A stretch of 64,000 nucleotides of DNA from Tatumella sp. JGM118 (GTDB lineage Bacteria; Pseudomonadota; Gammaproteobacteria; Enterobacterales; Enterobacteriaceae), in contig NZ_JAERJR010000001.1 of NCBI RefSeq assembly GCF_018257515.1, positions 372,001-436,000 of the forward strand, read 5' to 3'. Shown in pieces: positions 27,147 to 33,539 of this stretch (positions within the stretch are counted from its first letter, which is position 1; every line of letters begins with the position of its first letter). The notes under the pieces are model-generated. The model worked only from the letters and a program-made list of their open reading frames with translations. It was not told the DNA's origin and made no database searches. Position numbers and translations under genes: made by a program.

Positions 27147-27935
27147 ATGGGAAGACAGAAAGCAGTGATTAAAGCGCGCCGTGAAGCGCGCCGGGTGATC
27201 CGTAATGATTCCCGTAGTCATCGTCAGCGTGAAGAAGAATCGGTGACCTCGCTGGTACAAATGGGCGGTATGGATTCGATTGGTATGGCCCGCGATAGTC
27301 GTGACCGTTCTGTGATTGCAGCACGTAACGACGCACAGGCGAATTATCTTTCAGCCATCGAACACAAGCAGCTTATATTTGCCACCGGTGAAGCCGGCTG
27401 CGGTAAGACCTGGATCAGTGCAGCGAAAGCTGCAGAGGCGTTATCCAATAAAGACGTTGAAAGGATTATCGTCACACGACCGGTGCTGCAGGCAGACGAG
27501 GACCTGGGCTTCCTGCCCGGTGATATTTCTGAAAAATTCGCACCGTATTTCCGGCCGGTTTATGATGTGCTGGTTAAACGTCTGGGGGCCTCTTTTATGC
27601 AATATTGTCTGCGCCCGGAAATCGGTAAAGTTGAAATTGCTCCCTTTGCTTATATGCGTGGGCGGACGTTCGAGAATGCGTTTGTGATTCTGGATGAAGC
27701 CCAGAACGTTACTGCGGCTCAGATGAAAATGTTTCTTACCCGTCTGGGCGAGAATGTGACGGTGATTGTTAACGGTGATATTACTCAGTGTGATTTACCC
27801 CGGGGGGTAACCTCCGGCCTGGCCGATGCTTTACAGCGCTTTGAAGAAGATGACCTGGTAGGTTTAATCCGCTTCGATAAACAGGATTGTGTCCGTTCTG
27901 AGTTGTGCCAGCGTACGTTAGAGGCTTACAGCTAA
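27147..27935 (+). CDS. phoH: PhoH family ATPase
   Basis: 262 residues with Walker A GEAGCGKTW (about residue 80) and Walker B FVILDEAQN, followed by a GDITQCDLPRG sensor motif. This is the PhoH/superfamily-1-like ATPase fold; the basic N-terminus (RREARRVIRNDSRSHRQRE) could bind nucleic acid. E. coli PhoH is phosphate-starvation inducible, but its cellular role is not settled. GTAAGGTG precedes the ATG. It is followed by a terminator, so it is monocistronic. Confidence 0.93.
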   Translation: MGRQKAVIKARREARRVIRNDSRSHRQREEESVTSLVQMGGMDSIGMARDSRDRSVIAARNDAQANYLSAIEHKQLIFATGEAGCGKTWISAAKAAEALSNKDVERIIVTRPVLQADEDLGFLPGDISEKFAPYFRPVYDVLVKRLGASFMQYCLRPEIGKVEIAPFAYMRGRTFENAFVILDEAQNVTAAQMKMFLTRLGENVTVIVNGDITQCDLPRGVTSGLADALQRFEEDDLVGLIRFDKQDCVRSELCQRTLEAYS

Positions 27936-28521: not shown

Positions 28522-28985
28522 CCCCACGCAGGAATTACTCTCCGGCCTGGGTTGGGTGGAACGGTTCCCCCGACTGTAGGTGCTTATCTCCCGGTCACTG
28601 CCTGTCACCAGGGCCGGGATTCTCTTTACCACGACCGCATAGCTGTGACTCCCGTCATTTCTGATACCGCCGGACAGTCTGGAACGGATGTTTTTGGTGC
28701 TTTCCGATCTTTCTGCACAGGCTAACTATCGCCCGCAACCCACAACCCACAACCCACAACCCACAACCCACTGAGAACGGAATAGCTGGCACGACACGGC
28801 TCTTTTCCACCTCCTCTCCGCCCGTCTCCGGGCCTTTTCTGCGCTTTTCTGACGCTATGTATAGAATTTTGTTGGCTGTTACAGGGCACAACTTCCGCCG
28901 CTGGTGGCCTGTTGGCTGGAGATTTACTGTCAGGGCTCACCTTATTTTTGACCCCTCAGGGTCGCGATGAAGCAGGAGTCTTTTG
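28522..28985. other. Spacer upstream of the lysis cassette, with heptamer array
   Basis: No holin-like membrane ORF is visible here. A 37-codon frame at about 28856-28969 is not convincing. The CAACCCA array (28736-28770) lies in the middle. Confidence 0.5.
28736..28770. repeat. Heptamer tandem array (CAACCCA)5
   Basis: Five perfect CAACCCA copies. It is one of several short 7-8 bp arrays in intergenic spacers of this window. Confidence 0.9.
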
Positions 28986-29606
28986 ATGATGCAATCAGAA
29001 CAATTTGCCGCTGCCGCCGGTATCAGCGCGGAACTGGCATCACGCTGGCTTGAGCCGGTAACAGAAGCGATGGAACGTTTTTCCATTATTCATCCCATGG
29101 ATCAGGCCATGTTTATTGCTCAGACCGCTCATGAGTCAGAAGGGTTTACCACCCTGACAGAAAGTTTTAACTATACCCCGCAGGCGTTAGAGCAACTCTT
29201 TCCGGCTTATTTTACCCCGCAGCAGGCTACGGCGCTGGGACGGACCGCAGAGCAGCCTGCACAGCAACCGCAAATTGCAGAACGACTCTATGGGCAGCGG
29301 CTGGGTAACCTGTCACCGATGGAAGGCTGGATTTATCGTGGAAGGGGGCTGATTCAGGTCACCGGCCGGGATAATTATTGTCGTTGTGCCTCTGGCATTG
29401 ACCTGCCACTGCTCAGCCACCCGGATCTTCTGGCAAGCGATACGGCCGCAGCACTTTCCGCGGCATGGTACTTCGCCTCACAGGGATGCCTGGCGTGTTC
29501 CGGAGATCTTGTGAAAGTGACGGAAATTATCAACGGTGGCAGTAACGGTCTCGCTGACAGGGCTGTGCGTTTGCAGACCGCACTGACTGCATTGCAGCAG
29601 GTGTAA
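28986..29606 (+). CDS. GH19 endolysin (phage-type lysozyme/chitinase family)
   Basis: 206 residues from ATG 28986; AGGAG lies 8 nt upstream. Glycoside hydrolase family 19 motifs: FIAQTAHESEGF (catalytic Glu), LTESFNYTPQALEQLFP, and YRGRGLIQVTGRDNY. There is no signal peptide, so export would need a holin or an inner-membrane lesion. Spanin genes follow directly, so this is a lysis module for cutting peptidoglycan. GH19 chitinase activity on chitin is an alternative but less likely given the length and context. No phage structural genes flank it. Confidence 0.9.
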   Translation: MMQSEQFAAAAGISAELASRWLEPVTEAMERFSIIHPMDQAMFIAQTAHESEGFTTLTESFNYTPQALEQLFPAYFTPQQATALGRTAEQPAQQPQIAERLYGQRLGNLSPMEGWIYRGRGLIQVTGRDNYCRCASGIDLPLLSHPDLLASDTAAALSAAWYFASQGCLACSGDLVKVTEIINGGSNGLADRAVRLQTALTALQQV

Positions 29607-29609
29607 ATA

Positions 29610-30152
29610 ATGAAACTGAAATCAATTCTGGCCATCCTGATCGGCATCTTCTGGTTACTGACGGTGGTGATGAGTGCCGTGGTGGCTTACCGCTATAAAA
29701 GTGCTGTTGCTGCACAACATCAGGCAGAGCAAGAACAGCAGTATCAGGCGCAGATTATAAGAATGCAGAATGGGCAGTGGCAGCAACTGAACGCACTTTC
29801 TGAAAAAGCTCTGCAAACGAATTTACGCGCCAGTGCGCAAAATGAGGAAAATATTAATGAATTCCGGACTCTTCTCCGCCGTCAGAAAACCTGTGATCTC
29901 CCTGTGCCTGATGCTATTGCTCAGCGGTTGTACCGCTACACACAAGATTTACGTGCCGGCACAATGCCAGCCCCTGCCGGCGGCGCTGTTGCAACCCGTG
30001 CCGGTACCGTTACCGCCGGACATCTGAGCTATTGTCAGGCTGTGCTGTGGATCTACCCGCTACTGAATGCGATTGATACTGCGAACCATCAGTTACAGGC
30101 CATTTCACAGGCAGATAAACTCCGGGACCGCGAGACCTCCGGTCAGCAATAA
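29610..30152 (+). CDS. Inner-membrane spanin, Rz-like
   Basis: 180 residues. A single N-terminal membrane anchor (about residues 5-28) is followed by a long Gln/Glu-rich helical stretch (about 30-95), typical of Rz i-spanins, which bridge to the outer-membrane partner and fuse the two membranes at the end of lysis. It begins 3 nt after the endolysin stop. A second frame encoding an Rz1-type lipoprotein is embedded within it, the classical nested Rz/Rz1 arrangement. Confidence 0.85.
   Translation: MKLKSILAILIGIFWLLTVVMSAVVAYRYKSAVAAQHQAEQEQQYQAQIIRMQNGQWQQLNALSEKALQTNLRASAQNEENINEFRTLLRRQKTCDLPVPDAIAQRLYRYTQDLRAGTMPAPAGGAVATRAGTVTAGHLSYCQAVLWIYPLLNAIDTANHQLQAISQADKLRDRETSGQQ
29857..30027 (+). 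CDS. Outer-membrane spanin lipoprotein, Rz1-like (nested in Rz)
   Basis: 56 residues in the +1 frame relative to Rz, from ATG 29857 with GAGGAAAA upstream. The signal peptide has the lipobox LLLSGC, and the mature part is Pro-rich (CQPLPAALLQPVPVPLPPD), both hallmarks of Rz1 o-spanins. The complete nesting within rz is strong evidence that the pair is real and not decayed, since both frames are intact. Confidence 0.88.
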   Translation: MNSGLFSAVRKPVISLCLMLLLSGCTATHKIYVPAQCQPLPAALLQPVPVPLPPDI

Positions 30153-32662: not shown

Positions 32663-33095
32663 GGGGCAGGAGAGATTTTTCTTCTGAGTGAACAGGCAGG
32701 GAACTGAGGTTTTGCAGGATCAGAGGGGTGAATATCCCACTTTTCCGCAGGTTTTTGATACCAGGCTGCTGAGTTTTCTGTTTGTGGTTTATTCGGTTTA
32801 TCCTGGTGAATATTCCGTTCGCTGCATTGTCAGCCATACCGCCTTTGCCCCGATGTGGCCGACCGGGAAAAGGGCGCCTGGCCGTATTCTCTGCACGCTC
32901 CGCTTTGCAATAAGCCAGCCCTTCGCTGCGTGGTACCTTTTCCCACTCAATGGCGTCATGTCGCCCTTAACGCGGTGCTGAAATCAGGTAAGAAGCAAAC
33001 ATTAATATTGTTATGAAAAGCAGGAACAGATGCGGGTTCCGGGAAGTAAGGTTTCTGCATGCTATCTCCTATTCAAAAACACAGAGATGGCCGGA
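32663..33095. other. Intergenic spacer before the tRNA-distal repeats
   Basis: No gene supported. A short open frame around 32688-32981 has no recognisable motif or ribosome-binding site. Confidence 0.4.
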
Positions 33096-33230
33096 TAGCG
33101 ATGAGGGAGGGATGCACTCGCTGCACTGCAGCTAGCCCTTCGGGGGGCCGGAGGCCCTGCAAAACGCGGCAGGTTTTGTCGAACCCTGCGAGGGTTCTCA
33201 CCCTCCCGGGAGAGTGCCTGCTGACAGGCA

Positions 33231-33259
33231 ATAAAAAAGCCTGAACTTTCGTTCAGGCT
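33231..33259 (-). terminator. Terminator in distal repeat unit
   Basis: Minus strand: GCCTGAAC-GAAA-GTTCAGGC then TTTTTT. Second, distal copy. Confidence 0.9.
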
Positions 33260-33408
33260 CTCTTAAAAAATGATGGCGGTGAGGGAGGGATGCACTCGCT
33301 GCGCTGCAGCTCGCCCTTCGGGGGGCCGGAGGCCCTGCAAAACCCGTCAGGTTTTGTCGAACCCTGCGAGGGTTCTCACCCTCCCGGGAGAATACCTGCT
33401 GACAGGCA

Positions 33409-33437
33409 ATAAAAAAGCCTGAACTTTCGTTCAGGCT
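33409..33437 (-). terminator. Terminator directly after tRNA-Ser
   Basis: Minus strand: GCCTGAAC-GAAA-GTTCAGGC then TTTTTT, 14 nt past the CCA end; first copy of the repeated terminator. Confidence 0.92.
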
Positions 33438-33451
33438 CTCTTAAAGAATGA

Positions 33452-33539
33452 TGGCGGTGAGGGAGGGATTCGAACCCTCGATACGTTGCCGTATACACAC
33501 TTTCCAGGCGTGCTCCTTCAGCCACTCGGACACCTCACC
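33452..33539 (-). tRNA. tRNA-Ser (anticodon GGA)
   Basis: 88 nt on the minus strand, from GGTGAGGTG to encoded CCA. Long variable arm typical of class II tRNA-Ser, T-loop GGTTCGAATC, D-arm GAGTGGCTGAAGG, and anticodon loop with GGA (reads UCC/UCU). It corresponds to serW/serX of E. coli. Confidence 0.97.

Follow-up and report, generated by a model that had tools for sequence, protein, structure and literature searches.

According to PMC8144298, tRNA-linked repeats (TLRs; RtT in Rfam) have been known since 1978; 22 copies at ten loci in Escherichia coli K-12 are credited to Rudd (1999), and a function is known for none but the rRNA-linked ones. The same source records that the authors who had described an effect of rtT on the stringent response, in recovery after amino-acid starvation, later withdrew it, and that CsrA binding in E. 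coli is predicted only for the RrA, RrB, and RrF RNAs, not for the 19 TLRs of tRNA operons (PMC8144298). The 3′ end of RrB RNA was mapped to a site 3 nt beyond the 5S tail copy, with RNase E recognition of the repeat proposed, and at rrnB T1-rrB a terminator stands ahead of the repeat body and read-through was reported (PMC8144298). The Tatumella locus described here, within a 64-kb window (the whole stretch of DNA that was analyzed), is a well-formed example of this known family: a tRNA-Ser(GGA) gene is followed by two units of 178 bp, and both are tRNA-linked repeats.

Organization of the tRNA-Ser(GGA) Locus

33608-33580, minus strand: predicted sigma-70-type promoter, TTGACC-17 nt-TATAGT (promoter scan, pattern match only)
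33539-33452, minus strand: tRNA-Ser(GGA) with encoded CCA at its end (ARAGORN; RF00005, 54.1 bits)
33451-33274, minus strand: TLR/RtT unit 1, 178 bp (RF00391 match over 33399-33274)
33443-33410, minus strand: predicted intrinsic terminator of unit 1, 15-bp hairpin and T run, between the tRNA and the RtT body (fold; inverted repeat)
33385-33367, minus strand: inverted copy of the host tRNA T-arm and 3′ strand in unit 1, GGGAGGGTGAGAACCCTCG (model alignment, fold, host comparison)
33365-33357, minus strand: partial direct copy of the 5′ half of the tRNA T-arm in unit 1, AGGGTTCGA (sequence; unit alignment)
33291-33274, minus strand: tail copy of unit 1, 18/18 nt of the tRNA 3′ end including CCA (direct match)
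33273-33096, minus strand: TLR/RtT unit 2, 178 bp (full-length RF00391 match)
33265-33232, minus strand: predicted intrinsic terminator hairpin of unit 2, same sequence as in unit 1 (inverted repeat)
33207-33189, minus strand: inverted T-arm copy of unit 2 (alignment of units 1 and 2)
33113-33096, minus strand: tail copy of unit 2, 16/18 nt, both mismatches in the acceptor/CCA part (direct match)

The predicted promoter lies immediately 5′ of the tRNA gene and is followed by a GC-rich stretch; both units sit directly 3′ of the tRNA, the placement that characterizes TLRs (one to five units with a tRNA or rRNA gene just upstream). The original prediction of a tRNA-Ser with two distal 178-bp repeats that carry the tRNA 3′ end was borne out: the units are 94.9% identical in transcript register (33451-33274 vs. 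33273-33096), the direct repeat as detected spans 33094-33271 and 33272-33449 (2 × 178 nt, 95% identical), and the 18-nt copies differ from the tRNA end at none and at two positions, respectively. The window contains ATCCCTCCCTCACCGCCA, the terminal 18 nt of the tRNA, at three places (in the tRNA itself, at 33291-33274, and at 33113-33096), against 0.05 matches expected by chance. The perfect tail copy had been placed at the start of the unit; the copy itself stands, but in the direction of transcription it forms the unit’s end. Read 5′ to 3′, each unit has its elements in the order 15-bp hairpin and T run, inverted T-arm/3′-strand copy, partial direct T-arm copy, structured core, and tail copy; folded alone, unit 1 reaches -81.2 kcal/mol (z-score -4.8). 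Both units also carry their own terminator and a GGTTCGA motif, as had been noticed from the sequence; the two terminator hairpins are absent from the listing of a generic terminator scan, and pairing between the T run and the A-rich 5′ side is the probable reason.

ARAGORN calls a tRNA-Asp(GTC) at 33315-33391 on the plus strand, inside unit 1 and antisense to the RtT RNA, which was judged to be a false call; a similar antisense tRNA-Asp call in T. ptyseos (L214, 237-319) is likely a false positive as well, and could enter annotations. Between phoH (27147-27935) and the array, genes for a GH19-type endolysin (phrog_181) and an Rz-like spanin (phrog_214) occupy 28983-30152 on the plus strand; the region resembles an insertion or the remains of a prophage, because in Ca. 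Pantoea haifensis phoH adjoins the array directly. Finally, the Rfam family Ysr251, a Yersinia antisense sRNA, matches at 27737-27930 on the minus strand (109.6 bits), opposite the 3′ end of phoH.

Family Assignment, Hosts, and Distribution

The suggested link to rtT is supported by covariance-model search: with RF00391 (Rfam RtT), unit 1 scored 49.4 bits and passed the gathering score of 45, and unit 2 fell short of it at 39.2 bits, yet matched over its full length. The match of 18-19 nt between the 3′ ends of a TLR unit and its upstream tRNA is likewise present, complete in unit 1 and at 16 of 18 positions in unit 2. Unit 2 may be inert, given a score under the gathering threshold and the decay of its tail copy in the acceptor/CCA part. 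The same Tatumella genome contains six RtT matches: the two described here and four at tRNA-Pro(TGG) genes, three of them behind a gene on one contig and the fourth behind a gene on another. RefSeq has an RtT annotation at a serine tRNA of E. coli as well, beside clpA and infA. One RefSeq note is flagged by this analysis: in E. coli PS10-3 (L212, 1413-1548), an RtT behind a serine tRNA is described as “processed from tyrT transcript,” a wording that was carried over and misfits the locus.

In the GTDB family sample, 235 of 391 genomes contained an RtT match (E up to 0.001); in the class-level sample, matches were found in 52 of 276 genomes and exceeded the gathering score in 19. Eleven class-level loci were inspected, and ten had a tail copy behind a tRNA, with Gln(CTG), Gln(TTG), Tyr, Ser(GGA), and Ser(CGA) as hosts; three loci outside enterobacteria (L226, L233, L235) have RtT units behind tRNA-Gln, and their inverted copies match tRNA-Gln (20/21 nt in L235). 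The 297 distinct units of the enterobacterial sample are distributed over Lys(TTT) (110), Tyr(GTA) (104), Ser(GGA) (39), Pro (30), and Arg(ACG) (14). Behind Tyr, Lys, Ser, Pro, Arg, and Gln tRNAs, the tail copy of a unit equals the tail of its own host; the original prediction of a general tRNA-tail repeat family therefore stands in substance, but the family is not new, being the TLRs (PMC8144298). The 178-bp period, which had been taken as a sign of common design with tyrT, is a coincidence; unit lengths range from about 92 to 247 bp, ruling out 178 bp as a conserved family length. The gene order msrA - tRNA-Ser(GGA) - RtT units is common to four Tatumella species (this one and three others) and Ca. 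Pantoea haifensis.

Host-Matched Inverted Copy and Helix P1

When reverse-complemented, the 5′ arm of the RtT body comes close to the host tRNA in its T-arm and 3′ strand (here GGGAGGG-TGAGAACCCTCG vs. GGGAGGGATTCGAACCCTCG); it covers the T-stem, the loop, and part of the acceptor strand, and the GGGAGGG of unit 1 is predicted to pair with the tail copy in helix P1. For 155 of 175 units, and for nine of ten units from other gammaproteobacterial families, the best fit of the inverted copy is to the unit’s own host; the pairing of this copy with the tail tracks the host tRNA, be it Tyr, Lys, Ser, Pro, or Arg or, outside enterobacteria, Gln. At one variable position of the Tyr units, and with kinship ignored in all these counts, a tail C faces an antitail G in 74 units from 31 genera, a tail T faces A in 12 units from 4 genera, and a tail T faces G in 2 units; a standard pair is kept in 88 of 90 scorable units and broken in 2. 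Pooled over hosts, again with kinship ignored and with MAFFT offsets in some rows depressing the observed value, 76.9% of P1 cells are paired with the unit’s own tail, compared to 69.8% (sd 1.0%) when tails are dealt anew and 39-61% when the partner is slid. A simpler helix score ranked the own tail above the tails of all other hosts in just 162 of 275 units; the host match of the helix is therefore strong behind Tyr and Ser tRNAs but less so behind those for Lys, Pro, and Arg. This covariation fits both pairing inside the unit and pairing of the inverted copy to the tRNA itself.

In the Rfam consensus, part of the inverted copy is already paired to the tail copy; the P1 helix as such is therefore known, and what the survey adds is its tracking of the host. 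This tracking was not found in the accessible literature, which excludes the primary papers of 1991 and 1999, and no priority is claimed; the accessible part of PMC8144298 makes no mention of an inverted, host-matched T-arm copy. In the unit alignment, core hairpins with GNA loops are shared across hosts. The core contains repeated short GNA-loop hairpins followed by GAG, for example CCCGAAGGGCGAG and GAGCGAAGCGAG, which from their sequence may form tandem G-A pairs. In unit 2 of the four units of Ca. Pantoea haifensis (L219, 3489-4201), the tail copy is one base and the inverted copy two bases shorter, which looks as though one change had tracked the other.

Inheritance and Homogenization of the Units

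On a tree of unit bodies built without tail and antitail, in which few columns leave many forks unresolved, the host tRNA label requires 10 changes, compared to a shuffled mean of 58.7, and the genome label requires 111; all 18 Ser rows fall on one side of a branch with support 76. Since the host label needs so few changes, most units descend with their tRNA instead of having spread between tRNAs. Within arrays, unit identity has a median of 97.1%, vs. 64-75% between genera for the same host, and spacer identity is 95.6% within arrays and 48-71% between genera; sampled arrays contain one to five units. The high identity within arrays is as expected from recombination among array copies. The proposed spread between tRNAs by recombination in the copied tail is not supported, as unit cores group by host; homogenization does speak for recombination inside arrays. 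The best explanation for the Tatumella units includes inheritance at the tRNA-Ser locus, with recombination inside the array keeping them alike.

Proposed Processing of the Read-Through RNA

It is likely that the TLR pair at tRNA-Ser, homogenized within its array, gives rise to a read-through RNA whose P1 helix and CCA end are processed like those of a tRNA and which is released as a stable RNA. Transcripts that pass the hairpin terminator behind tRNA-Ser would carry one or two RtT bodies; the inverted copy and the tail copy would close helix P1 beside the CCA end. Since P1 next to CCA resembles a tRNA 3′ end, the enzymes of tRNA 3′ processing would be expected to cut there, and RNase E and the tRNA 3′ exonucleases may trim the RtT end as they do a tRNA. 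This processing step is drawn for tRNA units by analogy with RrB; as at rrnB T1-rrB (PMC8144298), the terminator precedes the body in the Tatumella units. A short, stable RNA would be released in proportion to transcription of the tRNA, and the upstream tRNA would stay intact.

The host-matched complementarity of 5′ arm and tail, in five enterobacterial tRNA species and in Gln outside this group, suggests selection on the RNA helix; as a constraint on function, it offers a cheap mutational test of the purpose of the tail copy. A broader and rather doubtful proposal is that TLRs across Gammaproteobacteria are tRNA-templated RNAs, consisting of an inverted copy, a T-arm copy split by a conserved core, and a tail, that are renewed whenever the host tRNA changes and serve as decoys or sensors of tRNA 3′-end maturation enzymes; if true, such a decoy or sensor would tie the load of RNase E, RNase T/PH, and T-arm modification enzymes to tRNA transcription.

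Alternative Explanations

The units could instead result from passive tandem duplication of the tRNA 3′ end and terminator, with unequal crossing-over in the tail copies keeping them alike and the RNA having no role. The near-identity of units and spacers within arrays relative to other genera and the variable copy number of one to five would both follow from such a process; P1 complementarity is kept across genera and across hosts with differing tails, however, while the spacer drops to 48-71% identity, and hairpins with GNA loops recur in the cores behind different hosts. Since passive duplication predicts neither the retained P1 nor the shared hairpins, we consider it unlikely. Direct repeats of a tRNA 3′ end are also the classic footprint of integration, and the tail copies could be attL/attR-like scars of an integrated or miniature mobile element targeting tRNA 3′ ends; phage lysis genes 3-4 kb away would fit this origin. 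Such remnants, named beforehand in the original prediction as an explanation that would count against it, were sought and not found: the neighboring ORFs tested include no integrase, the window contains no further tail copy that could mark a far end, the array of Ca. Pantoea haifensis adjoins phoH with no lysis genes between, and unit cores group by host tRNA instead of genome. Matches in phage and plasmid collections comprised tRNA-Ser, one unverified fragment, and records typed as non-mobilizable except one. An origin as att scars is thus extremely improbable.

The inverted copy could, alternatively, act on the tRNA itself, base-pairing with the precursor at its T-arm and 3′ strand so that tRNA maturation is slowed or redirected in an autoregulatory manner. 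Its extent, over the T-stem and loop and partly into the acceptor strand, would allow this, and the modeled minimum-energy fold of tRNA plus unit indeed pairs the inverted copy with the tRNA. Folding the tRNA together with its first unit put the tRNA’s 5′ acceptor strand opposite the tail copy in the minimum-energy structure of about 95% of 173 arrays; a strand-swap switch on this basis was rejected, as the fraction is the same with dinucleotide-shuffled unit bodies or bodies from other hosts. The swap is therefore a product of the energy model and of there simply being a second tail, and is not evidence for autoregulation; moreover, when folded by itself the tRNA always takes its native form, and it would do so before the unit is transcribed. 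Autoregulation is accordingly very unlikely, and the preferred reading remains a read-through RNA that is processed in the manner of a tRNA.

Comparison With Described Systems

The Tatumella units share with the RtT RNA of E. coli tyrT the covariance model, a tail copy that closes a stem, and the tandem arrangement behind a tRNA; they differ in their host, tRNA-Ser(GGA) instead of Tyr, with a tail and complement of the serine type, and in the intrinsic terminator that precedes the body, whereas most of the Tyr units displayed have no obvious one. As in the E. coli K-12 TLRs (Rudd 1999 as cited in PMC8144298), the 3′ end of 18-19 nt equals that of the upstream tRNA and a locus holds one to several units; Tatumella represents another genus. 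The 3′ETS-leuZ sponge RNA is similar in that it, too, has a function and is cleaved out of the 3′ part of a tRNA transcript; it acts by pairing with RyhB and RybB and is not described as a tail-copy repeat (PMC8144298). The RrA, RrB, and RrF RNAs of the E. coli rRNA operons resemble the Tatumella pair in that a TLR located 3′ of a terminator is reached by read-through and ends in a copy of the 3′ tail of the stable RNA encoded upstream; in their case, this upstream RNA is 5S rRNA (PMC8144298).
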